From the NCBI RefSeq assembly GCF_037023745.1, contig NZ_CP146101.1, positions 6,030,001-6,094,000 on the forward strand: DNA of 64,000 bases, written 5' to 3'. The notes under the pieces were generated by a model. The model saw only the letters and a list, made by a program, of their open reading frames with translations. It was not told where the DNA came from and ran no database searches. Numbering within the stretch: position 1 is the stretch's first letter; the number at the start of each line of letters is the position of its first letter. This document shows positions 16,150-31,641 of this stretch, one piece after another. A program made the position numbers and the translations under genes. The stretch is from Streptomyces sp. SCSIO 30461. Its GTDB lineage: Bacteria > Actinomycetota > Actinomycetes > Streptomycetales > Streptomycetaceae.

Positions 16150-17444
16150 GCGTCCCCCTCCGCGTGGGCCTTGATCGGCAGTATCGCCTGCACGCGGAAG
16201 CCGCCGTTGAAGCGGGGCCCGGCGGTCAACGTACCGCCGAGCGCGGTGGCGCGCTCGCGCATACCGATGAGTCCATGGCCGCCACCCTCGGCGGCGCAGG
16301 ACGCGGCACCCGTCCCGCTGTCGAGCACCGTGACCTCGACCGTCCGGCCCACCCACACGACGCTCACCTCGGCCCTGGCCGCCGCCCCCGCGTGCTTCTG
16401 CACATTGGTCAGGGCCTCCTGGATGATCCGGTACACGGCCAGGTCGACGGCCGCGGGCAGGGTGGCACCGTGATCGGTCCTGGCCAGCTCGACCGCCTGT
16501 CCGGCATGGCGGAACGACTCGAGGAGCTGATCGAGCGCGGCGAGTCCGGGTGCCGGCTCGGTGGGCGCCTCCGGGTCGCCCGACTGCCGCAGCAGACCGA
16601 CCGTGGCGCGCAGCTCGTTCAGTGCGGACCGGCTGGCCTCCCGCACATGCCCGAGCGCCTCCTTGGCCTGGTCCGGGCGCCTGTCCATGACATGCGCGGC
16701 GACTCCGGCCTGCACATTGACCAGGGCGATGTGGTGCGCCACGACATCGTGCAGATCGCGGGCGATCCTCAGCCGCTCCTCCGCGACCCGCCGCCCCGCC
16801 TCCTCCTCCCTGGTCCGCTCGGCACGCTCCGCCCGCTCCCTCATGGCGTCGACGAAGGCCCGCCGGCTGCGTACGGCGTCACCGGCCGCGGCCGCCATCC
16901 CGGTCCACGCGAAGACCCCGATGTTCTCCTGGCTGTACCAGGGCGCGGAGCTGAACAGCATCGCGGTCGCAGTCAGCACCGTCATCGACAGCAGCCCGAC
17001 CCGCCAGGTGGTGGGGCGGTCGGTACGGGACGCGACCGTGTACAGAGCCACCACCGCCGTCATCACCACGGGCGCCGGCGGATCTCCGGCGACGAACTCC
17101 ACGGCGGACAGCGTGCCCGTGGCGGCCAGTACGGCCATCGGCCGGCGGCGCCGGTACACCAGCACGACCGCGGCGAGCAGCATCAGGACCAGCGCGTGCG
17201 GCTGCGGTGTACGGGCTCCGAAGGTGGGCCCGTGCGGCCCGTGCGGATCGGCGAACGACATCCCGATCATGCAGACGAGCACGCCGAACGCCAACGCGGC
17301 GTCGAACGCGAGTGGGTGCTCGCGCAGCCAGCCTCGGGCGCGGTCGAGCCTGCCGGCTCCGGTCGGTAGTGCCGTCACGTCAAGCAACGGTACGGGGTAC
17401 CCCTCGGTGCCCGCCGCCCCCGTTCCGACATCGCCTGAGGTCAA
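16146..17444 (-). CDS. NarL-type sensor histidine kinase
   Basis: This kinase of about 430 residues has four to six N-terminal membrane helices (about residues 45-165), a HisKA_3 dimerisation domain with phospho-acceptor His in RDLHDVVAHH (about residue 240), and a C-terminal ATPase domain with the GHGLIGMRER box. It lacks a large extracellular sensor, so the signal may be sensed in the membrane. The start is uncertain: the longest frame begins at TTG 17444, and a later GTG around residue 23 is possible. It is coupled to the regulator downstream. The next gene upstream on the same strand is an MFS transporter 92 bp away, so read-through from the accessory block is possible. Confidence 0.9.
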   Translation of the reverse strand: MTSGDVGTGAAGTEGYPVPLLDVTALPTGAGRLDRARGWLREHPLAFDAALAFGVLVCMIGMSFADPHGPHGPTFGARTPQPHALVLMLLAAVVLVYRRRRPMAVLAATGTLSAVEFVAGDPPAPVVMTAVVALYTVASRTDRPTTWRVGLLSMTVLTATAMLFSSAPWYSQENIGVFAWTGMAAAAGDAVRSRRAFVDAMRERAERAERTREEEAGRRVAEERLRIARDLHDVVAHHIALVNVQAGVAAHVMDRRPDQAKEALGHVREASRSALNELRATVGLLRQSGDPEAPTEPAPGLAALDQLLESFRHAGQAVELARTDHGATLPAAVDLAVYRIIQEALTNVQKHAGAAARAEVSVVWVGRTVEVTVLDSGTGAASCAAEGGGHGLIGMRERATALGGTLTAGPRFNGGFRVQAILPIKAHAEGDA

Positions 17445-17536
17445 AGAGGGCGGCGGCGCGCCGAGTGGCCAAGCTCACGGCTGACCGTTCGGTGGACCGA
17501 GGCGGAGCGGCCGGTGCCGTGGCAGAGTTCACCGGC

Positions 17537-18835
17537 TCAGGCGTTGGTGGCGCGCCCGGCCAGTCGCCGGCCGAGGCCCGTGCCGAGGCAGACCAGGAGG
17601 AGGAGGTACAGCCCGATCGCCTCGCTGCCGACGGCGGTGTGCAGCCAGACGGCGATCAGCGGGGAGACGGCACCTCCGGCGACGGCGGCCGTGTTGTAGG
17701 TCAGTGCCGATCCCGTGTAGCGAAGCCCCACAGGGAACGCGTGGATCATGATGATCCACGCGGGCACCGCGGCGAAGGCGGAGCAGGAGAGCGCCAGCGC
17801 GACGCCGATGGCGTAGGTGAAGGGGGGAGCGAGGTCGACCAGGGGGAACAGCGTCAGGGCGATGACGGCCTCGGCCGCGCCGAAGACCAGGAGCGCCCTG
17901 GTCACTCCCATCCTCATGCTGACCCAGACGCCGATGAGGACGCTGAGCACGTAGACCACACCGCTGCAGGTGTCCGCGATGAGCACCGTGGTGGGTTCCA
18001 GGTGCAGTTGCCGGCGGGCGTACGCGATCAGGTACGAGGCCGCGATGTAGTTGAACGCGAACGGCGTGGTGAACATGGCCACGCCCATGCCGATCTCGGC
18101 GAGGTGACCGCGCGTCACCGCGCGTAGAGGGGAGCGGAAGGGCTGGTCCGCGCGTACGAAGCGCGAGAAGTCCTTGGTCTCCTCGATCCTGCTGCGGATG
18201 AAAAGGCCGATGAGGATGAGGACAGCGCCGAACAGCAGCGAGATCCTCCAGCCCCAGGCGAGGAACGCCTCCTGGCTCATGGCCAGGGAGACGACGAGCA
18301 GGACCAGCGAGGCCACGACGAAGCCCAGCGTCCCTCCGAGCAGGGGCCACGCGACGACGGCAGGCCGCCTGCTCGGGGGTGTGTTCTCGACGACCAGGAG
18401 AATCGATCCCGCGTACTCACCTCCGAGGGAGAAGCCCTGCACGAGCCGGAGCAGCAGAAGCAGGACCGGTGCGATGATCCCGATCGCGGCGGCTCCGGGG
18501 AGGAAGGCGACGCCGAGCGTCCCGATGCCCATGAGGATCAGGGTCGCGATGAGGACCCGCCGGCGGCCGAGGCGGTCCCCGAACTGCCCGAAGAAGACCC
18601 CTCCGACCATGCGTGCGAGGAAGGCGGAGCTGAAGACGGCCAGTGAGGCGACGGATCCGGCAACCGGTCCCAGCGACGGGAAGAAGACCTTGCTGAACGC
18701 GAGGGCGGCGATGGAGCCGAACACGGCGAAGTCGTAGGACTCGACCGTGCTGCCAGCCATGCTCGACAGTTTGACCAGCCGGAACTGCCGGGTCGGGAGC
18801 CAGGGTGCGGCCTCGTCGCCGGAGGTTTTCGCCAT
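17537..18835 (-). CDS. MFS transporter, metabolite:H+ symporter (MHS) type
   Basis: This 432-residue protein has 12 predicted membrane helices. Signature segments of the MHS subfamily (ShiA/ProP/KgtP-like) are STVESYDFAVFG at the N-terminus, FGQFGDRLGRRRVL in loop 2-3, and LRLVQGFSLGGEYAGS in helix 4. Members import organic acids, osmolytes or aromatic acids with protons. It follows the TauD-family dioxygenase gene by 166 bp on the same strand and may carry that enzyme's substrate. It could equally move the product or a precursor of the phosphonate pathway. The start ATG at 18835 fits the family N-terminus. Confidence 0.9.
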   Translation of the reverse strand: MAKTSGDEAAPWLPTRQFRLVKLSSMAGSTVESYDFAVFGSIAALAFSKVFFPSLGPVAGSVASLAVFSSAFLARMVGGVFFGQFGDRLGRRRVLIATLILMGIGTLGVAFLPGAAAIGIIAPVLLLLLRLVQGFSLGGEYAGSILLVVENTPPSRRPAVVAWPLLGGTLGFVVASLVLLVVSLAMSQEAFLAWGWRISLLFGAVLILIGLFIRSRIEETKDFSRFVRADQPFRSPLRAVTRGHLAEIGMGVAMFTTPFAFNYIAASYLIAYARRQLHLEPTTVLIADTCSGVVYVLSVLIGVWVSMRMGVTRALLVFGAAEAVIALTLFPLVDLAPPFTYAIGVALALSCSAFAAVPAWIIMIHAFPVGLRYTGSALTYNTAAVAGGAVSPLIAVWLHTAVGSEAIGLYLLLLVCLGTGLGRRLAGRATNA

Positions 18836-19001
18836 GGTGTCCCGTTCCCGATTCCGCAGCGGGGCGGTGCGCGGCTCACACCGGGCCCGCTCGTCCACAC
18901 GCGCTGGATGCGCTGCACGGTATTCGACGTCCTCGGGTTCGGGCGCGCGCGCTGCCCCGCCGAGGTTCGCACCAGGCCAACCCCTTCGGTGGAGGCGGGG
19001 C

Positions 19002-19964
19002 TCAGCGGGCGCGTACGCCCCCGACCTGGTAGGGATCACCGCTGATGGCGCGCGACCTGGCGCCGGAGGGTCCCACGGCGGGCTCTCCGGCGACGAACAC
19101 CCGGTACATCGCGCGTTCCTGCCCCAGCTTCTCGTGGTCCGTGGGGGCGACGTGGATGGTGGCCCGGTTGTCCCACATGGCCACATCGCCCGCCGTCCAG
19201 CGGTGTCGGAACGTCAAGTCGCGGTGTGTGGCGTGTGTGAAGAGCAGGTCGAGGATCCGTCTGCTCTCCGCCGGCGTCAGCTCGTTGATGTGGCTGGTGA
19301 AGCTGGGGTTCACGAACAGGCAGCGCTTGCCGGTGTCCGGCAGGGCGCGAACGACGGGGTGGTGCGCGACCAGCCCGGCATCGACGCTGGTGCGGGTGAA
19401 CGCGTCACTGATACCGAACGGCACATAGCCGACCAGGTAGCGGTGCTCCGCGGTCAACTCGTCGGCGAACTGGCGCAGCGGGGCCGACAGGCGCTCGTAG
19501 GCGGTCACCATGTCGGCCCAGATGGTGTCGCCTCCGTGCGACGGGACCTTTTCGGCGCGCAGCACGCAGAACACGGGAGGGTCGGCGGCGGCCGTGATGT
19601 CGCTGTGCCAGCCGGACAGGAAGTCCGGGTTCCGCCAGAGCGCGGCGTGCCGCTGCTCATCGGTCGTCTCCGGTCTCTCACCGTTCCCTGTGATCAGGGC
19701 GTGCACGTACGGGTGCCCCTCGACATGGGGAACCCATGGATGGGAGGGGGCGGGAGGGCCGAACTGCCCGGCGTACGCGATCTGCTGGTCGTGGGTGAGG
19801 TGCTGGTCGCGGAAGATGAGCACCCTGTGCTCTTCCAGAGCCCGCCGGACGACGGCGGTCAGACGCGGTGTGAGGGGAACGGCGAGGTCGATGTCCTCGA
19901 TCTCGGCGCCGATGCAACCGGCGAGCGGGGTGATGCTGACGCTGCTGCCGTCTTCCGCGTCCAC
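19002..19964 (-). CDS. TauD/TfdA-family Fe(II)/2-oxoglutarate dioxygenase
   Basis: This 320-residue non-heme iron dioxygenase has the 2-His-1-Asp facial triad: HSD in SGWHSDIT and the distal His in RATIHVAP. The 2-oxoglutarate-binding Arg lies in AMYRVFVAGE. GDTIWADM matches the TauD active-site region. Relatives hydroxylate taurine, alkyl sulfates, aryloxyacetates or, in phosphonate clusters, hydroxyalkylphosphonates (DhpA, FzmG). GTG at 19964 is chosen over upstream starts because GAAGGAGG lies 5 bases before it. It sits at the left of the phosphonate block, transcribed leftward with the MHS transporter. Whether it tailors the phosphonate or belongs to a separate sulfonate-use unit is open. 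Confidence 0.9.
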   Translation of the reverse strand: MDAEDGSSVSITPLAGCIGAEIEDIDLAVPLTPRLTAVVRRALEEHRVLIFRDQHLTHDQQIAYAGQFGPPAPSHPWVPHVEGHPYVHALITGNGERPETTDEQRHAALWRNPDFLSGWHSDITAAADPPVFCVLRAEKVPSHGGDTIWADMVTAYERLSAPLRQFADELTAEHRYLVGYVPFGISDAFTRTSVDAGLVAHHPVVRALPDTGKRCLFVNPSFTSHINELTPAESRRILDLLFTHATHRDLTFRHRWTAGDVAMWDNRATIHVAPTDHEKLGQERAMYRVFVAGEPAVGPSGARSRAISGDPYQVGGVRAR

Positions 19965-20125
19965 GGCGTCCTCCTTCTCCCCTGTGATTCTCACCCTTGA
20001 ATGACTTTGATCCCTGTTGATCATGGGATACCGCATTCGACATACGGCAAAAAGTGTACCTTTTCTGATATGTCCATGAGGTGGCTCCGAGGGGCTCGAC
20101 GCAGCCGGTGTCACCACGCGGGCGA

Positions 20126-21742
20126 TCAGGACTCGGCATCATGTCGCGCGTCGGCTGCGGAACCGGGGCCTGTCCCCGCCGGCCGGGAGCCGGGGTGCAG
20201 GAGCGCGCAGCAGAAGGCCATGGCCGCCGCGAGAGCCATGGCCATGAAGACCCACTGGTGGGCTCTGACGATGTCGAGCCGGATGGTCTCCTGGATGGCG
20301 GGGGTGAGCTGGACGCCTCCCACGCTGCTCTGAAGCCGGTCGCCCTGGTCGTCGCTGACGAAGTGCACGAGCTGCCGCGCCGCCTCCCCCACCGCGCCGG
20401 GAGCCATACCCATATCCTTCAGCGTCGATGTGACCCGGGACTGGGCGACATCGGAGAACACACTGCCGAGCAGGGCCAGCCCGAGGGCACCGGAGAAGAT
20501 GCGCGTGGTCTGGACGACGCCGCCGACCATTCCGCTTGCCTCCGGCCCCGCCCGCCCGTAGGCGTCCGTGGCCGCCGGCGGGACCACGAGCCCGACGCCC
20601 ATGCCGGCCATGGCGATGAACGGCCACTGCGCGCTCACGGAGAGCTCCCTGAGCTGCAGGGCCCACAGGGCGAACCCCGCGGTCCCGAGTCCCGCCCCGA
20701 TCAGCAGGGCCGGTTTCACCCCGACCCGGTCCTGCAACTGGCCGCCGAACTGCGCGCCGACGCTGTACGCGAGCTGGAAGAACAGGAGGTAGACGCCCGC
20801 TTGGACGGCCGTGTCCCGCAACGCCAGCTGGGCGTAGAAGGACGCGAAGAACAGCATGGGCATGTACGCGATGGTCGAGAAGAACAGGATGCTCATGTCC
20901 AACGCGAAGCAACGGTCGCGGAACAGGCGGATGTCGATGAGCGGGAACGGCGTTCGCTTCTCCCGGAGCACGAACAGCGCGAGGGCTCCCGGGCCGCTCA
21001 CGATCAGGAGCAGCGTGACGGGGTCGGACCATCCCAGCAGCGCAGCCTGCTCCAGCGCGAGCACGCTGGTCGTCATCCCCGCGGCGAGCAGGGCGGCACC
21101 CTTCAGGTCCTGGGAGACCCCCCGCTGCCCGATGTCGTTCCTGCCACGCGCGATCGCGATCAGCGCCAGCGCGCCGACACCGATCGGCAGGTTGATCCAG
21201 AACACCCATCGCCAGCTGAGCGTGGTCAGCCAGCCGCCCAGGGGCAGCCCCAGCGCACTGAGCAACTGGGAGCAACCGAACAGTGTGGCCAGGGCGCGGC
21301 CGCGCTGATGGACGGGGAACTCCGCAACGACCAGAGCCATCGCGGCCGGGTACATCACTCCGCCGCCCGCACCCTGGGCCACGCGGCACGCCACCAGCCA
21401 GGGCGTGCCGGCTTCCTGGGGGGCGAAACCGCACAGCACGGACGCGATCACGAAGACGGCGAGGCCGGCGAGCAGTACGCGCCGGGGCCCGTACACATCG
21501 GCCAGCCGGCCGCCCAGGGCGAAGGTCGCGGCGCGGGCAAGGGTGTAGCTGTTGACGACCCAGCGGATGCCCGCCGATGACAGGTCGAGATCCGCGGCCA
21601 TCGTCGGTGCCGCGATACTGACGACCATTCCGTCGATGATCGACAGCGACAGGGCCAGGAAAATGCCGACGAGCAGAACGCGGTCGACGCCGAGCCGCAC
21701 GGCCGGCCCGGCACTTTCCGCGCCTTCGCTGTGATCGCTCAT
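20126..21742 (-). CDS. MFS drug-export transporter, DHA2 (14-helix) family
   Basis: This 538-residue protein has 14 predicted helices. DHA2 features include the N-terminal LSIIDGMVVSIAAPTM helix, RWVVNSYTLARAATFALGGRLADVYG, the motif-A region DVYGPRRVLL, and the antiporter helix MALVVAEFP. These exporters usually give resistance to the host's own antibiotic. It is divergent from the nucleotidyltransferase-pepM-ppd operon (241-bp gap) and is the best candidate for product export or self-protection. The start ATG at 21742 lacks a clear ribosome-binding site; an upstream in-frame start near 21796 is possible. Confidence 0.9.
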   Translation of the reverse strand: MSDHSEGAESAGPAVRLGVDRVLLVGIFLALSLSIIDGMVVSIAAPTMAADLDLSSAGIRWVVNSYTLARAATFALGGRLADVYGPRRVLLAGLAVFVIASVLCGFAPQEAGTPWLVACRVAQGAGGGVMYPAAMALVVAEFPVHQRGRALATLFGCSQLLSALGLPLGGWLTTLSWRWVFWINLPIGVGALALIAIARGRNDIGQRGVSQDLKGAALLAAGMTTSVLALEQAALLGWSDPVTLLLIVSGPGALALFVLREKRTPFPLIDIRLFRDRCFALDMSILFFSTIAYMPMLFFASFYAQLALRDTAVQAGVYLLFFQLAYSVGAQFGGQLQDRVGVKPALLIGAGLGTAGFALWALQLRELSVSAQWPFIAMAGMGVGLVVPPAATDAYGRAGPEASGMVGGVVQTTRIFSGALGLALLGSVFSDVAQSRVTSTLKDMGMAPGAVGEAARQLVHFVSDDQGDRLQSSVGGVQLTPAIQETIRLDIVRAHQWVFMAMALAAAMAFCCALLHPGSRPAGTGPGSAADARHDAES

Positions 21743-21881
21743 ACCACGACATTCTTGAGCTCGCCCGCCTGCCCACTCCGCAGACACCCTTGGCACAGGC
21801 CCGGCACTCGCCCGAATGCGAGGCCCCCGGTCCCGCCCTCATACTCGAATCCGACGGTTCCGGTGGAAGCGGACGACCGAT

Positions 21882-21887
21882 TTGACA
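21882..21887 (+). promoter_or_regulatory. Candidate -35 element for the phosphonate operon
   Basis: A consensus TTGACA lies about 100 bp before the nucleotidyltransferase start, in the divergent gap between the DHA2 exporter and the operon. The stretch 21870-21960 is clearly more AT-rich than its surroundings. No convincing -10 is seen at the right distance, so the call is weak. Confidence 0.3.
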
Positions 21888-21983
21888 GCCCTATGCGACG
21901 TTGCTTCCCTGGATCAAGGTCTCCCCTTGTATTTTCGCGATCCCGATCCACAGCTCCACGGGCCGTATACGGGAAGAGGCAGG

Positions 21984-23081
21984 ATGAAGGCTTTGATCCT
22001 TTGCGGGGGGAGGGCGAGCCGGTTGCGTCCTCTTAGTTTCTCCATGCCCAAACAACTCGCTCCCGTGGCCAACAAGCCCGTCGTCTTCCACGGCTTGGAG
22101 ACGATCAGAGGATTCGGTGTCACGGAAGTCGGCATCATTGTCGGCACCTGGGCGGACGCCATCGTCGACGCGGTGGGCGACGGATCGGAGCACGGCCTCC
22201 GCATCACCTATGTGAAGCAGGAGAAGCCCTTGGGCCTCGCGCACTGCGTGGTGGTGGCCAGGGAATTCCTGGGCGACGACGATTTCGTCATGTATCTCGG
22301 TGACAACGTCATCTTGGGAGATCTCAGTAAGGCCGCAGAGGAATTCGAGCGAAATCGCCCGGACGCCCAACTCGTCGTCGCCCGGGTGCCCAATCCTTCG
22401 TCACACGGGCTGGCTGAGGTCACCCCGGACGGAAAAGTGCTGTGTCTCCCCGAGAAACCCGCTGTTCCCACAACGGACCTGGCCGTCATGGGCGTCTTCT
22501 TCTTCACGTCAGCCATCCACAAAGCCGTACGCTCCATCCAGGCGAGCGAGCGCGGCGAACTGGAGATCACCCACGCCATCGAGTGGCTCATCGAGCACGG
22601 CGGCGGCGTGCGGGCGACGCGTTTCTCCGGGTACTGGAAGGACACCGGGACCGTCGAAGGGCTGTTGGACTGCAACATGGTCATGCTCGACACCCTGGAG
22701 CGCCGGATCATCGGCTCGGTCGACTCACTGAGCGACGCGACGGGACGGGTGGTCGTGGAACGGGGTGCCCGAATCAGGGGCTCGCAGATCGTGGGCCCTG
22801 CGGTGGTCGGGGCATCCAGCCTCGTGGAGGACTCCAGGATCGGCCCGTACGCCAGCCTGGGCGCCAACTGCGTGGTGACCGGCACGGACATCGAGCGGTC
22901 GATCGTCTTCGACGGTGGCCGCCTCAAGGACATCGGGCGGCTCCACGACTCGCTGATCGGCCCCTGCGCCGAGGTCCGCGCCGTACGCGATCAGCGGGCC
23001 GGACACCGGCTGATCGTGGGCGAGTGGACGACGATGGACATCGCCGAAGGACCGAACCGGACAACGGATGCGTGGCCGTGA
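21984..23081 (+). CDS. StrD/RmlA-like nucleotidyltransferase with left-handed beta-helix tail
   Basis: This 365-residue enzyme has an N-terminal NTP-transferase domain (about 1-240) and hexapeptide-type beta-helix repeats (about 250-350). The catalytic start ALILCGGRASRLRPL and PKQLAPVANKP match long-form glucose-1-phosphate thymidylyltransferases, though the usual GxGTRLRPLT loop is altered (RASRLRPLS). The metal-binding Asp is in YLGDN. Family members make dTDP- or other NDP-sugars. Overlap with pepM (TGA/ATG at 23079-23083) suggests it may instead activate a phosphonate, as CMP-phosphonate enzymes do, or a sugar that carries one. Its first 25 codons use forms rare here (TTG, CTT, AGT, AAA, CAA), hinting at transfer. 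The start ATG at 21984 follows GGAAGAGGCAGG. Confidence 0.88.
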   Translation: MKALILCGGRASRLRPLSFSMPKQLAPVANKPVVFHGLETIRGFGVTEVGIIVGTWADAIVDAVGDGSEHGLRITYVKQEKPLGLAHCVVVAREFLGDDDFVMYLGDNVILGDLSKAAEEFERNRPDAQLVVARVPNPSSHGLAEVTPDGKVLCLPEKPAVPTTDLAVMGVFFFTSAIHKAVRSIQASERGELEITHAIEWLIEHGGGVRATRFSGYWKDTGTVEGLLDCNMVMLDTLERRIIGSVDSLSDATGRVVVERGARIRGSQIVGPAVVGASSLVEDSRIGPYASLGANCVVTGTDIERSIVFDGGRLKDIGRLHDSLIGPCAEVRAVRDQRAGHRLIVGEWTTMDIAEGPNRTTDAWP

Positions 23082-23959
23082 TGACCAGCGAACTCGCGAG
23101 TCCTGGAACCCGGTTGCGCCGGCTGCTGGCCGAGCCGCAACCGACCCCGCTCATGGGGGCCCACGACGGGCTGAGCGCACGCATCGCGGCGGAGGCCGGC
23201 TTCCCCGCACTGTGGGCGTCCGGACTGTGCATGTCCACCACGCTGGGCGTGCGCGACAGCGACGAGGCATCCTGGAGCGACCTGCTCGGCCTGGTGATGC
23301 GCGTCGTGGAGGCGGCGGATCTCCCCGTCCTGGTGGACGGTGACACCGGCTACGGCAACTTCAACACCGCCCGCACCTTCACCGCCCGCGCTGAACGCAT
23401 CGGAGCAGCGGGCGTCTGCTTCGAGGACAAGGTGTTCCCCAAGATGAACTCCTTCTTCGGGGACAGCCACGCGCTCGTGCCCGTCGACGAGTTCAGCGGA
23501 ATGATCAGAGCCTGCCGGGACATTCTGCGCGATCCGGAATTCGTGATCGTAGCCCGCACGGAAGCGTTCGTGGCGGATGCCGGCGCGGAGGAAGCCCTCA
23601 GGCGGACCGAGGCCTACCGGAAGGCGGGGGCGGACGCCGTCTTCATCCATTCCCGCAGCGAATCCGTGGACGAGATCGCGCAGTTCATGGAGATATGGCA
23701 CGACCGGCTCCCGGTCGTCATCGCCCCCACCACCTTCTACCGGACGCCGCCCGAGGTGTTCGCGAACCTCGGCATCAGCGCGGTGATCTGGGCCAACCAG
23801 AGCCTGCGGTCCGCCGTGGCGGCGATGCGCCGAGCCTGCCGCGTGCTGCGAACGGAGGGACCTGTCGCCCTGGAGGAGGAGATCGCCCCCCTCGACGTCG
23901 TCTTCCGACTCATGGACTACAAGGGGCTCACCACGGACCAGGAGCGGTACCGCGCATGA
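23081..23959 (+). CDS. pepM: Phosphoenolpyruvate mutase
   Basis: This 292-residue TIM-barrel enzyme of the isocitrate-lyase/PEP-mutase superfamily turns PEP into phosphonopyruvate, the entry step of nearly all C-P bond biosynthesis. The motif that separates true mutases from hydrolases and lyases is complete: EDKVFPKMNS (EDK-x5-NS). Other mutase segments are WASGLCMSTTLGVRDSDEAS and VDGDTGYGNFNTA. The reaction is uphill and needs the decarboxylase encoded next, whose ATG overlaps this stop codon (23956-23959). The start ATG at 23081 overlaps the stop of the nucleotidyltransferase. Function is very secure. Confidence 0.97.
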   Translation: MTSELASPGTRLRRLLAEPQPTPLMGAHDGLSARIAAEAGFPALWASGLCMSTTLGVRDSDEASWSDLLGLVMRVVEAADLPVLVDGDTGYGNFNTARTFTARAERIGAAGVCFEDKVFPKMNSFFGDSHALVPVDEFSGMIRACRDILRDPEFVIVARTEAFVADAGAEEALRRTEAYRKAGADAVFIHSRSESVDEIAQFMEIWHDRLPVVIAPTTFYRTPPEVFANLGISAVIWANQSLRSAVAAMRRACRVLRTEGPVALEEEIAPLDVVFRLMDYKGLTTDQERYRA

Positions 23960-25128
23960 TCACCGCGGGGGCGCTTGTGGACGAACTGGCCGCCCGGAGC
24001 GTGGCCGAGGTGACGGGCGTACCCTGCTCCTTCCTGACACCGCTGATCAACAAGGTGGCGTCGGATCCCTCCGTGCGCTACCTGCCCGCCACCCAGGAGG
24101 GCGAGGCCGTGGCGATCGCCACCGGAGCATGGCTGGCAGGCGCGACGACGTGTGTCATAGCCCAGAACTCCGGGCTGGGCAACATGGTCAACCCTCTGAC
24201 CTCGCTCAACCACCCCTGCCGGATCCCGGTGCCGCTGATCGTCACCTGGCGCGGTGAGCCGGGCAGACCGGACGAACCGCAGCACGAACTGCTCGGCGCG
24301 ATCACCACCGACCTGCTGACGACGCTCGGTGTCAGCCACTCGCTCATCCCTCCCGGCCCCGAGGATCTCGGGGCCGTACTCGACCAGGGCTGGGACGCGA
24401 TGCGCGGGCGGGAGCTTCCGCACGCGTTCGTCATGCGGAAGGGGACGATCGCGGCGGAGACGCTGAGCGAGCCGTGGCCGCAGCCGTCACCGGAGACGAA
24501 GGTGGTCCGCTTCGGGGATGCCGGGCGACGACGGCCACCACGCCGGATCGAGGCACTGGAGTGCCTGCTCCGTACCGTCGACGATCGGAGCGCCGTCATC
24601 TCGACCGCCGGGAAGTGCAGCCGGGAGCTGTTCACTCTCGCCGACCGGCCGCAGCACTTCTACCTGGTCGGCGCGATGGGCTCGGCATCGGCCGTGGGGT
24701 TGGGAGTCGCCCGCCACTCGGCCCGCCGGGTCGTCGTCGTCGACGGCGACGGCGCCGCCCTGATGCGCCTGGGCACACTGGCGGCCATCGGGGCGGAGCC
24801 GCCGCTGGCGTTGACGCATGTGCTGCTGGACAACCAGGTCCACGATTCCACCGGCGGCCAGCGCAGCCTCTCCGCGGGCACCGACTTCCCCGCGGTGGCG
24901 GCTGCCTGCGGCTACCCGAGCGTCTTCGACTGCACCGACCTGGCCGGTCTGCGGGAGGCGCTGCAGGAGGCGGCGGCCGCCCCCGGCCCCTGCTTCGTCC
25001 ACGCGCGCATCCAGCCCGGTTCGCTGGAGCCGCTCGGGCGGCCGACCCTCCATCCATCCGATGTGGCCCGCAGGTTCCGGTCGTTCGTCGCCGGCGGCGA
25101 CCGGGCGGAGGCGCCTCGTACGGGATGA
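23956..25128 (+). CDS. ppd: Phosphonopyruvate decarboxylase
   Basis: This 390-residue thiamine-diphosphate enzyme decarboxylates phosphonopyruvate to phosphonoacetaldehyde, which pulls the mutase reaction forward. The N-terminal Pyr domain has VPCSFLTPLIN and the catalytic-Glu region ATQEGEAVAIA. The C-terminal PP domain has the ThDP/Mg motif beginning VVDGDGAALM and ending LLDNQ, and VHDSTGGQ is typical of Ppd. The two domains are in one chain, as in Streptomyces Ppd enzymes (some other families split them). It is the third gene of the coupled operon. After it come 57 bp and then a convergent gene. Confidence 0.96.
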   Translation: MITAGALVDELAARSVAEVTGVPCSFLTPLINKVASDPSVRYLPATQEGEAVAIATGAWLAGATTCVIAQNSGLGNMVNPLTSLNHPCRIPVPLIVTWRGEPGRPDEPQHELLGAITTDLLTTLGVSHSLIPPGPEDLGAVLDQGWDAMRGRELPHAFVMRKGTIAAETLSEPWPQPSPETKVVRFGDAGRRRPPRRIEALECLLRTVDDRSAVISTAGKCSRELFTLADRPQHFYLVGAMGSASAVGLGVARHSARRVVVVDGDGAALMRLGTLAAIGAEPPLALTHVLLDNQVHDSTGGQRSLSAGTDFPAVAAACGYPSVFDCTDLAGLREALQEAAAAPGPCFVHARIQPGSLEPLGRPTLHPSDVARRFRSFVAGGDRAEAPRTG

Positions 25129-25185
25129 CACCGCAACCGGCGGGAACCCGGTGGGCCGGTGCGGGGATGCCGGATGGCGACGGGG

Positions 25186-26403
25186 TCAGGCAGGCCCCGG
25201 CAGGCCCTCCAGGAACCTGTCGCAGTCGAGCAGCCGGTGCGCTCGCACCCCCGGGCTCCGCCAGGGCAGGTCCAGCCGCGGGGGGCGGTCGGCGTCGTGG
25301 AAGTAGCAGGCCTCCAAGCTCTGGTCCAGCCCGATCAGCAGCACGGGATTCGCCACCAGGAAGTCCCGTACCGCCGGGGTGTCCCGGCGCACCCACAGCA
25401 GCATGCGCTTGTCCCGGTAGTGGTCGTCGGGCAGGCCGACCTGCGGGTGCATCCTGCGCTTGAACTGGAAGATGCCCTTGCTCAGGAAGGGCTCGCAGCC
25501 CGCCAGGTCGACCCGCCTCAGCCCCTGGGCGGTGGCCCACTGCAGCAGCAGGACGTACACGGCCAGGTAGGTGCCGGTGTGGTAGTAGCGCTGATCGCCG
25601 TCGGCCACGCCGACGAGCCGGAGGACCAGCGTGCGGCCTTCCAGCCGGCACAGCGTCCCCGCCACACGCCGCCCCGATTCGCACAGGAAGAACAGCACAC
25701 CGCGGTGGAACAGGCAGCGCCGCGCGTGCTCACGCTCCTCCGAGTGCGCTCTGTCACCGTGCCTGCGGTCCATGGTCGGCCGGTGCATACGGTCGTAGAA
25801 GTAGTCGAAGTCACTTTCCCGGGTGGCCACTTCCAGTGAGCGGCGGCGCACGGACATCTCATGCCGGTGCTGCTCGCGCGCCCGGCGGGAGAGGCGGTCG
25901 ATGACGTCGCCGTACTCGGGGCCGACGGGGACCGCCTGGCCGACCCGGAAGGGCAGCAGCAGGCTGTGGCGTGGCGGTGGCGACGGCGCCATCCGCTGCG
26001 GCACACCGATCACCAGGAGCTCGGCCGCGGGGGCTGCCCGGCCGCCGGTCAACTCGGCCCACGAGGTCCGGCTCACCTGCCGGATCGGCCGACCGCCGCG
26101 ACGCCATTCGAGGAACGGGAGCCCATGGCTTCGGCCACGGGCCAGACCTCCGTAGGCCAGCACCGGCACCCCGGCCAGGGCCGATCGTGACTCCACCAGC
26201 CAGGGCCGGGTCGCGGCGACCGCATCCGCCCAGGCGTGGGCCCCCGCCACCAGAGGGTTACCGCTGTGCTCCCAGGCATAGCGGATGTTCGGGGGGATCA
26301 TCCGTGCCCCGCCGCGCGGACCCACCCGTGCCCCGCCGCTGCCCTTCCCCTGCCGCCCGGATCGCTCCGGCCGCCCGGTCTCCGGCTTCGCCGATTCCAC
26401 CAC
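25186..26403 (-). CDS. FemAB/GNAT-like acyltransferase, possibly tRNA-dependent
   Basis: This protein has about 405 residues. The C-terminal half (about 210-340) looks like a GNAT/FemAB-type domain: a long basic helix region (RRAREQHRHEMSVRRRS), then GTYLAVYVLLLQWATAQG, then RVDLAGCEPFLSKGIFQFKRR. The final K-G-x-F-Q-F-K-R-R pattern is typical of FemAB/CelD-like enzymes. In phosphonate peptide pathways such enzymes (DhpH, FzmI) add an amino acid from aminoacyl-tRNA. That role is inferred, and N-acetylation is the alternative. The start at 26403 (GTG) follows GGAGAGG; an ATG at about 26301 would drop a basic, low-complexity N-terminus. It lies 36 bp behind the PLP-enzyme gene, probably in one transcript. 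Confidence 0.65.
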   Translation of the reverse strand: MVESAKPETGRPERSGRQGKGSGGARVGPRGGARMIPPNIRYAWEHSGNPLVAGAHAWADAVAATRPWLVESRSALAGVPVLAYGGLARGRSHGLPFLEWRRGGRPIRQVSRTSWAELTGGRAAPAAELLVIGVPQRMAPSPPPRHSLLLPFRVGQAVPVGPEYGDVIDRLSRRAREQHRHEMSVRRRSLEVATRESDFDYFYDRMHRPTMDRRHGDRAHSEEREHARRCLFHRGVLFFLCESGRRVAGTLCRLEGRTLVLRLVGVADGDQRYYHTGTYLAVYVLLLQWATAQGLRRVDLAGCEPFLSKGIFQFKRRMHPQVGLPDDHYRDKRMLLWVRRDTPAVRDFLVANPVLLIGLDQSLEACYFHDADRPPRLDLPWRSPGVRAHRLLDCDRFLEGLPGPA

Positions 26404-26439
26404 CGTCGTCCTCTCCGCCGGTCCTCCCTGGTCAGGGGA

Positions 26440-27807
26440 TCAGACACGCGCCGCCGCGAGGACGGCGCCGGCCAGTTCCTCGGTGGTGTCGGCCCGGCCG
26501 AGGTGTTCGGCCGGGAACGGGTCGATGAGATCGTCGCTGTAGTAGCCGGCTCCGTGGACGACGACATCGGCCGACTCCGCGATCAGCCCGCGCTCCCGTG
26601 CCACGAGCACTCCCGCGAACGCCTTCACCAGCGACCACTCCTGGATCAGGGAGGGATCGCGGGCGATGGCGATGCCCGCCTCGGCGACCAGCCCGCGCAC
26701 CCGGTCCAGGCGCTCGATGCACTCACGCTTGGACACCACCACGCCGCCACCGCCGTGTCGTCTGATGACCGCGCCGATCAGGGCGCTGGTGGCCGGTCGG
26801 CGGGTCCAGAAGGTCGGGTCGATGACCTCCTGCGGATCATCCGTGGCAGCGGGGAACTCGGGTACGGAAGGTACGGACGACTGGCGCCACAGGGCCGCTG
26901 CGGCGTCGTACGCGTATTCGGGCGGCTGAACGCCCAGGGAGGTCACCAGATCGGGAGTCGCCAACTGCTGGACGAGGAGGAAGGCGGGGTGGCTGGCCGG
27001 CCGCGGGAACCCCGCCATTCCTTCGGTGAGCATCCGGTGCCCCAGGTGGTATCCGAGCAGTCCGAAGGCGCTGGAGACGGCGTGGGCGTGCACCCGCGAC
27101 GCGCTCTCGGGGGTGAGGGGAAGCAGTTCGGCCTCGGCGAAGGCGCGTGTCGCGTCACCGACACGGTAGTTGTCGAGGTCGTGGGTGTAGCAAAGGCGGA
27201 ATCCGGTGGTGTCGAAGACGCGGTCGGCGTACCCGGTCAGCACCCTCCCGGCCATGGCCTTCACCTCGCTCGGCTCCCCGACGTCGGCGACGAGCACAGG
27301 GTTCGCGGCACGCAGCGCAGGGTCTGCGTTCAGCGCACTGTCGCGGAACTTGTACCGCGAGGCGGCGGGCACGAGGACCGCCGAGCGGACCTCTTCCGGT
27401 GAAGCCAGTCCGCTCGTGTACGCGCGGGCGACCGCGTCCCGCAACGCCATGCCTTTGTTACCGGAAGTAGGGGTGAGGAACAGCACCCGCTCGCCGGTCT
27501 TCCGGACATGGGCCGCCGCACGCGCCACCATGAGCAGGGACGCCAGGGTCTTGGTGGTCCTGGTCCCCGGGTTCCGTGTCAGATCCAGCAGGTAGGTGCG
27601 CTGCTCCACACGGGTGAGGCCGATGTCGCTGACGGCAGCGAACTCCGCGAAACCCGGGGGCTTCTCGACCAGCTCGAGAGGAAGGAGGGGGGCCGTCTCG
27701 CGCTCCGCGTCGGCCGCACGCGCCGCGGCGGCGATCCCGTGGAAGTACCGGTCGAGCGCACACGGCACAACCCCCGGGGCGTCGGCCGACTGCTCTGCGG
27801 AACACAC
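26440..27807 (-). CDS. PLP fold-type II enzyme, threonine-synthase-like
   Basis: This 455-residue protein has features of fold-type II PLP enzymes: a likely Schiff-base Lys in GTRTTKTLASLL (about residue 95) and a phosphate-binding loop PTSGNKGMALRD (about 125), arranged as in threonine and cysteine synthases. It is divergent from standard ThrC and resembles proteins from other secondary-metabolite clusters that, I think, are filed as DUF6002. In a phosphonate block there are two readings: a beta/gamma-replacement or lyase step building the phosphonate amino acid, or an insensitive threonine synthase for self-resistance, as proposed for the rhizocticin cluster. GTG at 27807 is chosen because GGAAGGAG lies 10 bases before it. 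It is divergent from the ornithine-acetyltransferase gene. Confidence 0.7.
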   Translation of the reverse strand: MCSAEQSADAPGVVPCALDRYFHGIAAAARAADAERETAPLLPLELVEKPPGFAEFAAVSDIGLTRVEQRTYLLDLTRNPGTRTTKTLASLLMVARAAAHVRKTGERVLFLTPTSGNKGMALRDAVARAYTSGLASPEEVRSAVLVPAASRYKFRDSALNADPALRAANPVLVADVGEPSEVKAMAGRVLTGYADRVFDTTGFRLCYTHDLDNYRVGDATRAFAEAELLPLTPESASRVHAHAVSSAFGLLGYHLGHRMLTEGMAGFPRPASHPAFLLVQQLATPDLVTSLGVQPPEYAYDAAAALWRQSSVPSVPEFPAATDDPQEVIDPTFWTRRPATSALIGAVIRRHGGGGVVVSKRECIERLDRVRGLVAEAGIAIARDPSLIQEWSLVKAFAGVLVARERGLIAESADVVVHGAGYYSDDLIDPFPAEHLGRADTTEELAGAVLAAARV

Positions 27808-28015
27808 CGTCGATGCACTCCTTCCTCTCCTCATTCTCATCCCGGCCCGGCCGACCCGCCCACCGGCGGGGCCTGGACCCGAACGAGGGATTACGGGCGG
27901 CGGAAGGGCGTGCGACCCGCCCGCCGGGGCACCCATGTCGCGGCGTGTCCGATGGGTGCCGCGGGACCGCGGGAACCACCAGGGGTCCACCGGGTGGACG
28001 GGAAAGGAGGCGGGT

Positions 28016-29254
28016 ATGGCGGGAGCGGTGGCAGCGCCTCGTGGGTTCCTCGTGCATACCGCGTCGGTCGGCCTCGGCGGGGATGAGCGCGACGGCGGTG
28101 ACGACTTCGCCATCCTGCTCTCCGCCCACCCGGCGGAGTGCAGCGCGGTGTTCACGCGCTCGCTCTTCGCGGGTCCCAGCATCGTGGTGTCCAGGGACGA
28201 GAGCCGGGTGGCGGCGGCGCGTGGAGTCGTCGTCACCGCCCGTAACGGCAATGTGGCCAACGGACCCCGGGGGCTGCGGGACGCCCGGGAGCTGCGCGCG
28301 TCCGCGGCCCGTGCCTGCGCGGTACCCGAGACGGAGTTGCTGATCGCGTCCACCGGGGTCATCGGCAGGCCGTACCCCATGGGCGAGATCCTGGCCCATC
28401 TGTCGTCGCTCGAATGGCCGCCCACGGACGACGACGGCTGGCCGGAGCGAGCGGCCCGCGCCATCATGACCACCGACACCCGGCCCAAGACGGCGACGGA
28501 GCGGTGCGGTCCCGCCACCGTCCTCGGCATCGCCAAGGGCGTCGGGATGATCGAGCCGGACATGGCCACGCTCCTGGCCTTCTTCCTCACCGACGCGAAC
28601 ATCCCCCGCCCCGCCCTCGACGCGATCTTCCGGAGGGTGGTGGACGCGACCTTCAACGCCGTGTCCGTGGACACCGACACCTCCATCGCCGACATGGCGG
28701 CGGTCTTCGCGAACGGACTGGCCGGACCGGTCGACCTCGGAGAGTTCGAACGCTCCCTCCACTCCGTCGCCCTCCCCCTGGCGAAGATGGTCGCCAGGGA
28801 TGGGGAGGGCGCCTCCAAGCTGATCGAGGTCACCGTGACAGGGGCCAGGGACAGCGCGCAGGCCAAGCGCGTGGCCAAGGCCGTGGTCAACTCCCCGCTG
28901 GTCAAGACGGGTGTGACCGGCGGGGACCCCAACTGGCTGCGGATCGCGGTGGCGGTGGGCAAGTGCCATGACGACACCGACATCGATGCGGACCGGGTCA
29001 CCATCGGCATCGGCGGGACGCCCGTCCAACCTGCCGGGCCCGCGGACCGGCCCGAGCGCACAGAACGCGCCATCGAGGAGCACCTGCGCGGAGACGAGGT
29101 GCACATCACCGTGGGACTCGGCATCGGCGACGCCCGGTACACGGCTTTCGGCTGCGACCTGGGACCGGGTTTCCTGGACATCAGCTCGCGGCGCACCTGC
29201 TGGAGCACCGACACCTGGGGCATCGGCAGCCGCAGCGGCCCGCCGCGCCCCTGA
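28016..29254 (+). CDS. Ornithine acetyltransferase-like protein (ArgJ family, OAT2 type)
   Basis: This 412-residue Ntn-type enzyme is made as one chain and probably cleaves itself at the Ala-Thr bond in GMIEPDMATLL, giving a Thr nucleophile. The upstream oxyanion segment STGVIGRPYP and the conserved AKGVG before the cleavage site are present. Housekeeping ArgJ moves acetyl from N-acetylornithine to glutamate; this copy is not near arg genes and its cleavage-site text resembles the clavulanic-acid OAT2, so it probably acts on the cluster product. It could add or remove a protecting acetyl group or supply ornithine/arginine. The start ATG at 28016 follows AAAGGAGG by 5 bases. Confidence 0.87.
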   Translation: MAGAVAAPRGFLVHTASVGLGGDERDGGDDFAILLSAHPAECSAVFTRSLFAGPSIVVSRDESRVAAARGVVVTARNGNVANGPRGLRDARELRASAARACAVPETELLIASTGVIGRPYPMGEILAHLSSLEWPPTDDDGWPERAARAIMTTDTRPKTATERCGPATVLGIAKGVGMIEPDMATLLAFFLTDANIPRPALDAIFRRVVDATFNAVSVDTDTSIADMAAVFANGLAGPVDLGEFERSLHSVALPLAKMVARDGEGASKLIEVTVTGARDSAQAKRVAKAVVNSPLVKTGVTGGDPNWLRIAVAVGKCHDDTDIDADRVTIGIGGTPVQPAGPADRPERTERAIEEHLRGDEVHITVGLGIGDARYTAFGCDLGPGFLDISSRRTCWSTDTWGIGSRSGPPRP

Positions 29255-29325
29255 TCGCGACCGTACGCGGAGCATTCGCCCGCCCCACCCGGCTCCGTGC
29301 GCACACGGCGAGGCCGAGCCGGTCG

Positions 29326-30075
29326 TCAGCCGCGGAGCGGAATACCCGCGACGAGGCCGCCGTCGATCACGAACTCGGCGCCCGTGCAGTACCCGGACTC
29401 GTCGGAAGCAAGGAACAGCACCAGGTCCGAGACCTCCTCGGGCCGCGCTCCGCGGCCGAGTGGAATCTGCAGCACGGCCGGGTCGATGCCCTCCGTCATG
29501 GGCGTCTCGATGAAGCCTGGGTGCACGGAGTTCACCCGGATCCCGAAGCTCCCGACCTCGACCGCCACCGACTTGGTGATCCCACGCACCCCGAACTTGG
29601 CCGCCACGTAGCCGTGCAGCCAGGGGCTGCCGCGAAGGCCCTCGACCGACGAGATGTTGACGATCGAGCCGCCACCCTGAGACTTCATGGCCGGCACCAC
29701 AGCCCGCATGCCGTAGAAGACGCCGGACAGGTTGATGCCGATGATCTTCTCCCAGTCGGCGGGCTCGAAGCTGTCGACCGGGCTCCCGTTCGCGATACCC
29801 GCGTTGTTGACCAGGATGTCGACCCTCCCGCCGAACTCATCGAGCGTCCGGCGCACCGCCTGCTCCCACTCAGCCGGGCTTGTGACGTCGAGGCGCGCGA
29901 ACGCGGCAGCGTCTCCCAGCTCGGCGGCCAGGGCCTCCCCCGCGTCGACCAGCACGTCGGCGACAAGCACCCGCGCGCCCTCCGCCACCAGTCGGCGCAC
30001 GTGCTGCTCGCCCATACCGCGCGAACCCCCCGTCACGATTGCGGTCTTCCCCACGACGCGTCCCGCTTCACCCAT
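29326..30075 (-). CDS. Short-chain dehydrogenase/reductase
   Basis: This 249-residue classical SDR has the nucleotide-binding motif TGGSRGMG, the structural NNAG, Ser in NISSVEG, and the catalytic pair YVAAK. It ends with the usual VIDGG region. It resembles 3-alpha/20-beta-hydroxysteroid dehydrogenases, a label often given to SDRs of unknown substrate. At the right edge of the phosphonate block it is the only visible candidate to reduce phosphonoacetaldehyde to 2-hydroxyethylphosphonate, although known enzymes for that step are iron alcohol dehydrogenases. AAGGGAG precedes the ATG. It could instead be an unrelated flanking gene. Confidence 0.88.
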   Translation of the reverse strand: MGEAGRVVGKTAIVTGGSRGMGEQHVRRLVAEGARVLVADVLVDAGEALAAELGDAAAFARLDVTSPAEWEQAVRRTLDEFGGRVDILVNNAGIANGSPVDSFEPADWEKIIGINLSGVFYGMRAVVPAMKSQGGGSIVNISSVEGLRGSPWLHGYVAAKFGVRGITKSVAVEVGSFGIRVNSVHPGFIETPMTEGIDPAVLQIPLGRGARPEEVSDLVLFLASDESGYCTGAEFVIDGGLVAGIPLRG

Positions 30076-30545
30076 GGCTCGCCACTCCCTTGGATACCGT
30101 TCGCCGCGGACCTCCTGCCGGGCCCATCTCCCGAATGTGGACCACGCACAGGCGGAGGGCGCCCGGAGCGCACCTGTTCGGGTAGCCGCCCAGCCGGTGA
30201 GGCGGTGCCTGTTCTGCCCCGTACCCACCTCCCGCACGGCCGAGGACGGAACCGGCGAGGTGGCGGGCCGCAGCCGTCGAGGAGGGTGGATGACCGGCTG
30301 GTCGACGAACCGGTCCACCGACTGCGGGCCGATGGCCCAGCGAGTCGACCGCCACGGACGGGCTGCTCCGGCAGTCGGCACACGACGTACGCCGGAGCGG
30401 CCCGTCCCAGCCCGCGCTCACGACGGCTGCTTCGACCGGTGCCCGCTTCGGCACGGAGTGCGGTCGGCGGACGGCTCGCCGAAGGCGGCGGCCGCCGGGC
30501 CAGGACGCAGACCGCGCACACCACCGGGCTTTGAGGCGGAGAGGC
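30076..30545. other. 470-bp gap without a recognisable gene
   Basis: Open frames on both strands here are Arg/Pro/Gly-rich, without start signals or known motifs. This gap is the probable right edge of the accessory block, just before the conserved pspAA-pspA genes. No direct repeat, integrase or tRNA was seen. Confidence 0.5.
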
Positions 30546-30824
30546 TCAGCCCGGGATCAACCCGTCGTCGTCGAGCATGTCGCGGACTTCCTCCAGCGTC
30601 GCCTCCGGGGACGGCAGTATCAGCTCGGACGGCTCCAACGAATCATCGGGCAGCGGAGCGCCGAGCCGGCGGACCGCGTCGAGCAGTCCGCACAGCGTCC
30701 GCCGGAAGCCGGGCTCGTCGCCGGACTCCATTTCCGCCAGGAGCTCATCGTCCAGCTTGTTCAGCTCGTCGAAGTGCCCGTTGTCGACCCTCCACTGGCC
30801 TTCCCCCATGATCCTGACGATCAT
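30546..30824 (-). CDS. pspAA: PspA-associated protein PspAA
   Basis: This 92-residue acidic protein starts MIVRIMGEGQW and has a DELNKLDDELL helix, matching the small PspAA domain found beside actinobacterial PspA. It probably helps regulate or bind PspA at the membrane. It begins 35 bp after the pspA stop on the same strand, so the two are likely one operon. Confidence 0.82.
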   Translation of the reverse strand: MIVRIMGEGQWRVDNGHFDELNKLDDELLAEMESGDEPGFRRTLCGLLDAVRRLGAPLPDDSLEPSELILPSPEATLEEVRDMLDDDGLIPG

Positions 30825-30858
30825 GACGCGCCGTCCCTACCGCTCATCGCCGCTCACG

Positions 30859-31641
30859 TCACTGCTTGTTGAGGTTCGGCCCGTCCTGCGCCGTGGAACC
30901 GTCGCCGCCCTCGATGGCCTGCTGCTGGCCGCCGCTGCCTCCCGCCAGCTCTGCCTTCATGCGCTGGAGCTCCAGCTCGACGTCCGTGCCACCGGAGATA
31001 CGGTCCAGCTCGGCCGCGATGTCGTCCTTGGCCATGCCCGTCGGGTCGTCCAGCGCGCCGGAGGCGAGCAGTTCGTCGATCGCGCCGGCGCGCGCCTGGA
31101 GCTGGGCGGTCTTGTCCTCGGCACGCTGGATCGCCAGGCCGACATCACCCATCTCCTCGGAGATCCCGGAGAACGCCTCGCCGATCCTGGTCTGGGCCTG
31201 GGCCGCGGTGTAGGTGGCCTTGATGGTCTCCTTCTTCGTGCGGAAGGCGTCCACCTTGGCCTGGAGCCGCTGGGCCGCGAGGGTGAGCTTCTCCTCCTCG
31301 CCCTGCAGGGTCTGGTGCTGGGTCTCCAGATCGGTGACCTGCTGCTGGAGCGCGGCGCGGCGGGACAGCGCCTCCCGGGCCAGGTCCTCGCGGCCGAGCG
31401 CGAGTGCCTTGCGGCCCTGGTCCTCCAGCTTCGACGACTGGCCCTGGAGCTGGTTGAGCTGCAGTTCCAGGCGCTTGCGGGAGGTCGCGACGTCGGCGAC
31501 GCCGCGGCGTACCTTCTGCAGCAGCTCAAGCTGCTTCTGATACGAATAATCGAGGGTCTCGCGCGGATCCTCGGCCCGGTCAAGGGCCTTGTTTGCCTTC
31601 GCGCGGAAGATCATCCCCATACGCTTCATGACACCGCTCAT
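30859..31641 (-). CDS. pspA: Phage shock protein A / IM30 family membrane-stress protein
   Basis: This 260-residue, almost wholly coiled-coil protein starts with an amphipathic helix (MKRMGMIFRAKANKALDR). It is followed by the PspA/IM30 core (DPRETLDYSYQKQLELLQKVRRGVADV) and long heptads rich in Gln, Glu and Lys. Members form ESCRT-III-like rings that patch damaged membrane. The C-terminal 35 residues are Gly/Gln-rich and disordered. It is the first gene of a leftward operon with pspAA. Confidence 0.95.
   Translation of the reverse strand: MSGVMKRMGMIFRAKANKALDRAEDPRETLDYSYQKQLELLQKVRRGVADVATSRKRLELQLNQLQGQSSKLEDQGRKALALGREDLAREALSRRAALQQQVTDLETQHQTLQGEEEKLTLAAQRLQAKVDAFRTKKETIKATYTAAQAQTRIGEAFSGISEEMGDVGLAIQRAEDKTAQLQARAGAIDELLASGALDDPTGMAKDDIAAELDRISGGTDVELELQRMKAELAGGSGGQQQAIEGGDGSTAQDGPNLNKQ

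Follow-up and report, generated by a model that had tools for sequence, protein, structure and literature searches.

Our analysis of a 64,000-nucleotide stretch of Streptomyces sp. SCSIO 30461 (hereafter the window; positions 6030001-6094000 of a single 8.05-Mb contig) points to an inserted accessory block of ten genes that appears to be a self-contained cluster for the synthesis and export of a small phosphonate conjugate. We give this reading a probability of about 0.6, a figure that applies to the class of cluster and not to each step of the pathway. Phosphonates include fosfomycin, fosmidomycin and phosphinothricin. The block encodes a phosphoenolpyruvate (PEP) mutase (PepM), a phosphonopyruvate decarboxylase (Ppd) and an RmlA/StrD-like nucleotidyltransferase (NTP), together with a FemAB-like transferase, a DUF6002 protein, an OAT2-type ArgJ, a TauD dioxygenase, a short-chain dehydrogenase/reductase (SDR) and two major facilitator superfamily (MFS) carriers (Table 1). 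This combination was absent beside the related PepM genes listed in our searches and, judged by its sequence, the block probably directs the synthesis of an undescribed small phosphonate that carries an amino acid.

By comparison with relatives, the block is a single insertion of about 13.1 kb, because its flanks adjoin in most of those relatives and the shared DNA stops and resumes at its borders. In blastn against 18 same-genus relatives, homology on the left ended by 17401 at the latest and restarted on the right at 30543-30561; in loci L175 and L190 the right border was split in two, with long segments starting at 30903 and 30879 and second ones at 30545 and 30543, respectively. The left-flank kinase gene adjoins pspA in 15 of the 18 relatives, and the loci fetched from the other three (L175, L187 and L188), in which no kinase was found, were short; pspA was matched in all 31 genomes, the strain's own included. 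All ten genes, which occupy 17537-30075, lie inside this one insertion, at or very near the positions given in a preliminary description of the window, which had also called the block accessory, a view that the sharp borders uphold. The gene caller found no further gene of at least 90 codons in the block.

NTP, PepM and Ppd form one operon in this order, in which the NTP and PepM frames overlap by one base (TGATG) and those of PepM and Ppd by four (ATGA). This overlap, and the confinement of all ten genes to one insertion, argue that the grouping is not due to chance. PepM keeps its EDK-x5-NS motif intact as EDKVFPKMNS, Ppd passes the TIGR03297 cut-off and has a thiamine diphosphate (ThDP) motif, and NTP passes the cut-off of rmlA_long. 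Thus, profile matches, motifs and start codons that overlap stop codons bear out the earlier proposal of a pepM-ppd pair coupled to a StrD-like nucleotidyltransferase. Elsewhere in the genome lies a second gene of the PEP mutase superfamily (G000:C1:1319517-1320236; locus L002), in which EDSAYPKCNS takes the place of the EDK-x5-NS motif. Among the PEP mutase, lyase, hydrolase and carboxyphosphoenolpyruvate (CPEP) mutase models it scores highest on the first, with 203.7 bits against a cut-off of 319.55.

Comparison with other PepM genes was based on at least 80 loci from a scan of genome contigs, with up to 10 kb on each side and some of them on short or metagenome-assembled contigs; in total, 99 loci (80 of them the scanned PepM loci) were compared with 16 window genes at a threshold of 1e-8. 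Homologues of TauD, FemAB, DUF6002 and ArgJ were found in none of the 80 PepM loci listed, and partial NTP matches of 23-34% identity in three (L044, L052 and L070). None of the 80, therefore, carries the same combination, and to that extent the gene set stays unmatched, as had been suggested. A lack of known matches is nothing unusual for such clusters, since in one survey 22 of 45 phosphonate cluster families have no link to a known producer (PMC12723261). The nearest PepM was 74% identical, the best among 8000 candidates scored from a set of 5.8 billion proteins, and the relatives listed ranged over 57-74%, many of them named PEP mutase. Among 392 same-genus genomes (own included) there were 15 PepM matches at 1e-60, the best other one at 60%, and in a plasmid collection (119 records) the best reached 66.9%. 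A second copy of the cluster was sought in 384 same-family genomes, where the best DUF6002 was only 64% identical, in genome G687, where its nonribosomal peptide synthetase (NRPS) cluster also has a Ppd-like decarboxylase.

The PepM tree was built from 38 chosen rows, four of them with long branches and with same-genus loci L008, L009, L010, L012-L016 and L018 left out; in it, the window PepM grouped with that of Umezawaea (L020) and three distinct Streptomyces sequences (6-row set, support 96/93). The closest PepM genes in the tree thus belong to L020 and to a plasmid of S. aurantiacus, whose clusters, unlike the block, include transketolase halves and a class IV-type aminotransferase (seen by scan in L020 and by annotation in S. 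aurantiacus); the plasmid cluster (L252; NZ_CP114282.1) also has a phytanoyl-CoA-dioxygenase (PhyH)-family gene and a large NRPS/polyketide synthase. Neighbouring clades hold Nonomuraea/Streptosporangium, Nocardia and the producers of phosphinothricin tripeptide (PTT).

The genes on the other side of Ppd suggest how an amino acid could be joined to the phosphonate. The FemAB-like transferase, proposed as such before, shows a weak PF13480 match and no match by sequence in the PDB, but its predicted model has the FemABX-type aminoacyl-tRNA-dependent transferase fold, with aminoacyl-tRNA-dependent peptide synthases (natural-product aminoacyl-tRNA ligases) ranking first among the fold matches. Its Lys281 (QFK) is invariant in 14 of 14 sequences and is a candidate equivalent of Lys329 of DhpH-C. 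On the strength of the model, FemAB is a probable aminoacyl-tRNA-dependent ligase. Enzymes of the tRNA-dependent GNAT family are used in the argolaphos, dehydrophos and fosfazinomycin pathways (PMC11867202).

The gene described earlier as a pyridoxal phosphate (PLP) fold-II enzyme encodes DUF6002, whose predicted model indeed has the threonine synthase fold of the ThrC/cysteate synthase group, and it carries a TTKT lysine and an SGNKG motif. Membership at the level of sequence was not found: DUF6002 had no NCBIfam match at 1e-3, nor any match to PDB sequences, whether as a single protein (E 1) or as an 18-row profile (E 10). A role as a self-resistant threonine synthase was considered and set aside, there being no ThrC sequence match and a PepM match in none of the 20 other DUF6002 loci fetched. 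In 13 of these 20 a FemAB homologue lies near DUF6002, and the pair recurs with NRPS, asparagine synthetase-like AsnB and monooxygenase partners. The alignment of DUF6002 drew on 17 of the 20 loci (L156, L164 and L168 were left out), and the gene caller, which puts the start of some genes too late, overlooked DUF6002 in L164. Our literature search found no paper on DUF6002.

Some other DUF6002 loci have features of their own. Two NRPS-type clusters (L166:7216-17070 and L260:2578-12291) combine DUF6002 and FemAB with AsnB, DUF885, a flavin mononucleotide (FMN) reductase and a split Ppd/ComDE-like decarboxylase, and possibly make a sulfonate-containing product; genome G134, which holds L166, has no PepM match at 1e-60. 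A gene of the PanD (aspartate decarboxylase) family adjoins DUF6002 in L150-L153, L157 and L263, four of which also have a TauD-family gene; the PanD assignment was made by Pfam in L151, by a score over the TIGR00223 cut-off in L263 and by clustering in the others. In L155 (11654-14083) and L156, clusters with cytochrome P450 genes, a UvrD-like helicase gene stands directly beside the DUF6002-FemAB pair.

ArgJ is far closer to Streptomyces clavuligerus OAT2 (1vz6, 7e-139) than to other ArgJ structures (1vra, 7e-34; 3it4, 2e-19), with Thr185 aligned to the start of the OAT2 beta chain, in agreement with its earlier classification; it is 30.5% identical to the other ArgJ of the genome. OAT2-type enzymes occur in 51 of 392 genomes (own included) at the threshold used, and 16 of the 20 relatives fetched from the top of the list have two or more of four clavam-type gene families as neighbours; the one representative clavaminate synthase scanned was over its cut-off. 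Since its close relatives lie mostly in clavam-type clusters, the OAT-like gene lends a phosphonate peptide little support. Clavam clusters share with the block this OAT2-type ArgJ (oat2), but no clavam gene is present among the ten. The two ArgJ proteins closest to that of the window (L232, 66%; L233, 65%) have none of the four clavam-type families within about 9 kb, and these loci share other neighbours with the clavam-type ones. Polyoxin PolN was rejected as a precedent, as it is described as a GCN5-type enzyme (PMC4029187).

In Pfam, NTP matches PF00483 best, and PF12804 gives a weaker hit that overlaps it (31.1 bits against 27). Of 131 positions that do not vary among 14 genus homologues (14 of 19 homologue loci were extracted), NTP differs at 19; each of the 14, held out in turn, departs at 0-8 of 131-139 positions. 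This contrast is partly one of distance, as the homologues resemble one another more than they resemble the window NTP. Fourteen of the 19 changes, including G11A, D55T, F141H and Y172F, are identical in an orthologue of 86% identity (P0123) from Streptomyces sp. NPDC127084. Because the changes are common to both proteins, the sequences suggest that NTP represents a distinct subfamily and not decay. Positions 141 and 172 fall in stretches alignable with RmlA, in which the equivalent residues presumably line the sugar site.

The remaining genes belong to the families first named for them, which confirms the TauD dioxygenase, the SDR and the two MFS carriers. The closest PDB entry to TauD, whose start codon is uncertain, was 5keu (2e-76).

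Table 1. Features of the inserted block and its flanks (window coordinates).
Feature	Position	Strand	Evidence
Left flank: core histidine kinase, outside block	16146..17444	-	57-79% identical beside pspA in 15/18 relatives
Inserted accessory block	17402..30542	.	Between histidine kinase gene and pspA operon
MFS transporter, metabolite:H+ symporter-like (MHS/ProP type)	17537..18835	-	PF00083, PF07690; TIGR00883 324 bits, cut-off 443
TauD/TfdA 2-oxoglutarate dioxygenase	19002..20036	-	PF02668 7.6e-58; HxD motif HSD at residue 144
DHA2/EmrB-type MFS exporter (probable efflux)	20126..21742	-	TIGR00711 205.7 bits, under cut-off 230.2
NTP	21984..23081	+	TIGR01208 rmlA_long 380.3 bits, cut-off 320.25; divergent
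PEP mutase (PepM)	23081..23959	+	PF13714 7e-58; EDKVFPKMNS at residues 115-124
Phosphonopyruvate decarboxylase (Ppd), single-chain	23956..25128	+	TIGR03297 378.9 bits, cut-off 312.5; ThDP motif GDGA at 264
FemAB/GNAT-fold transferase, probable aminoacyl-tRNA-dependent ligase	25186..26301	-	Weak PF13480, 25.2 bits against 22
DUF6002, PLP-enzyme-like, predicted threonine synthase fold	26440..27807	-	Pfam DUF6002 E 3e-139
OAT2-type ArgJ (ornithine acetyltransferase)	28016..29254	+	PF01960; PDB 1vz6 7e-139
SDR-family oxidoreductase	29326..30075	-	PF13561 7.8e-61; TGGSRGMG and YxxxK
Right flank: core 92-amino-acid open reading frame and pspA, outside block	30546..31641	-	Reading frame matched in 18/18 relatives

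As expected from their sequence families, PepM would convert PEP to phosphonopyruvate and Ppd would convert this to phosphonoacetaldehyde. For the product and the later steps we infer a phosphonate pathway with tRNA-dependent attachment of an amino acid. The SDR could turn phosphonoacetaldehyde into 2-hydroxyethylphosphonate or act at a later step, and NTP, probably translated in step with PepM, may add a nucleotide to the phosphonate by analogy with Fom1 and PntC. TauD may hydroxylate the carbon chain, DUF6002 may form or modify an amino acid in a PLP-dependent elimination or replacement reaction, and FemAB would join an amino acid from aminoacyl-tRNA. ArgJ could supply an ornithine/arginine-family precursor or transfer acetyl onto a glutamate-like intermediate, and the DHA2 carrier would export the product. 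We favour a small conjugate with an amino acid over a polymer at the cell surface, since the best folds for the FemAB model are natural-product aminoacyl-tRNA ligases and the ten genes include no glycosyltransferase or lipid-anchor gene. The preliminary description had reached the same preference; its argument from amino-acid-linking genes gains support from the FemAB model, whereas that from the OAT-like gene is weak. The sequence evidence supports its claim of an undescribed phosphonate pathway, with a product class that is plausible.

Some observations weigh against a phosphonate conjugate cluster. PepM scores 307 bits on the curated TIGR02320 model, about 12 bits short of the cut-off of 319.55 (the next model, the TIGR02321 hydrolase, gives 170). 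The family assignment of PepM rests on its motif, the coupling to Ppd and relatives often named PEP mutase, and not on that cut-off. In addition, NPDC127084, the sole strain found with close orthologues of both NTP (86%) and DUF6002 (88%), on two contigs of 116.9 kb and 29.5 kb, respectively, showed no close PepM, and none above 74% appeared among the 8000 candidates scored in the protein set. A contig break inside PepM, leaving pieces too short for the search, could explain this, as one of several possibilities.

The absence of a visible PepM in that strain also fits another arrangement, in which NTP-PepM-Ppd would make a simple phosphonate and TauD-FemAB-DUF6002-ArgJ-SDR a separate amino-acid-derived compound. 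DUF6002 and FemAB do recur together where no PepM match is found, and the two gene sets are transcribed towards each other. We nevertheless regard two side-by-side modules as unlikely, since all ten genes lie in one sharply bordered insertion, and NTP and DUF6002, one from each set, seem to travel together because they co-occur in NPDC127084 at similar identity.

A cell-surface phosphonate of the Pnt type, with the nucleotide-phosphonate made by NTP transferred to a polymer or lipid, would also agree with the coupling of NTP to PepM. Rice et al. attribute most bacterial phosphonate capacity to surface tailoring and find nucleotidyltransferases common beside PepM, counting those of PF12804 and PF01467 (PMC6697681). 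On the other hand, the Pfam scan found no glycosyltransferase, phosphotransferase, polymer or lipid-transferase gene among the ten, and the DUF6002-FemAB pair recurs with partners of the NRPS, AsnB and monooxygenase kind, which makes a surface product improbable. Slightly less credible still is an ordinary role for NTP, in which it would supply an NDP-sugar for glycosylation of a product. NTP is over the rmlA_long cut-off and keeps many active-site stretches in the alignment to RmlA, but genes for a glycosyltransferase or for sugar modification are missing from the block, a further nucleotidyltransferase lies beside RmlB elsewhere in the genome (2584756/2585714), and the NTP changes at G11, F141 and Y172 are common to its orthologue.

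Comparison with described systems shows parts of the block, each in a different setting. The comparison took in the dehydrophos (dhp) and fosfazinomycin (fzm) gene sets. The dehydrophos pathway has PepM, Ppd, a 2-oxoglutarate dioxygenase and PLP chemistry in common with the block. Unlike that pathway, the block has its PLP protein as a separate DUF6002 with the predicted threonine synthase fold, has an RmlA-like enzyme and ArgJ, and lacks an iron alcohol dehydrogenase, a methyltransferase and a kinase. Both have GNAT-fold aminoacyl-tRNA transferases, a predicted one in the block and DhpH-C and DhpK in the dehydrophos producer Streptomyces luridus (PMC12945691). The argolaphos cluster alp also has PepM, Ppd, a nucleotidyltransferase, GNAT ligases (AlpF is pfam13480) and an MFS gene; however, AlpM belongs to another nucleotidyltransferase family (cd05403), ATP-grasp, a hydroxypropylphosphonate (HPP)-epoxidase-like enzyme, phosphonoacetaldehyde reductase and an aminotransferase occur in alp only, and its gene table lists no DUF6002, ArgJ, TauD or SDR, so that the gene sets differ (PMC8976061). 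Unlike in rhizocticin and other 2-amino-5-phosphono-3-pentenoic acid (APPA) pathways, there is no aldolase or ATP-grasp in the block, DUF6002 has no ThrC sequence match and its fetched relatives lie away from PepM.

That the block makes PTT or some other known phosphonate, with the remaining genes elsewhere in the genome, is very improbable: its PepM does lie near clades with PTT-type clusters, and in the comparison with PTT/phosalacine clusters some of the closest PepM/Ppd relatives, in Nonomuraea (L021, 73%) and Kitasatospora phosalacinea (L030, 64%), come from gene sets whose CPEP mutase, a PTT hallmark, exceeds the curated cut-off, but no block gene passes a PTT hallmark cut-off (the genome was not searched for other PTT genes), each of the ten falling in a Pfam family other than those of CPEP mutase, iron alcohol dehydrogenase, 2-hydroxyethylphosphonate dioxygenase (HEPD) and NRPS, PepM itself reaches no more than 91 bits against the CPEP mutase cut-off of 420, and our estimate fell slightly because the L002 gene, the sole other PF13714 match of the genome over the Pfam cut-off, proved to be no CPEP mutase (52.9 bits against 420, 38% identity to PepM, EDS instead of EDK).

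Returning to a small phosphonate conjugate, a more specific layout can be suggested tentatively, although we consider it possible at best. Here NTP, of the RmlA/StrD fold and outside the two families counted by Rice et al., would make a nucleotide-phosphonate, DUF6002 would produce a special amino acid from O-phosphoserine through a beta-replacement like that of cysteate synthase, and FemAB would attach an amino acid from aminoacyl-tRNA; a mixed phosphonate-sulfonate or a phosphonate-ornithine/arginine conjugate might result, and DUF6002-FemAB would be a general, unrecognised tailoring module for natural products of actinomycetes. PepM-guided mining still yields many unmatched clusters (PMC12723261), and this one, compact and with sharp borders, could be cloned whole. 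If NTP does act on a phosphonate, it would mean that a sugar nucleotidyltransferase has been taken over for activating phosphonates. For the unnamed family DUF6002 there is now a predicted fold as well as a partner that keeps recurring, so that what the DUF6002-FemAB pair does could be tested in several clusters at the same time.

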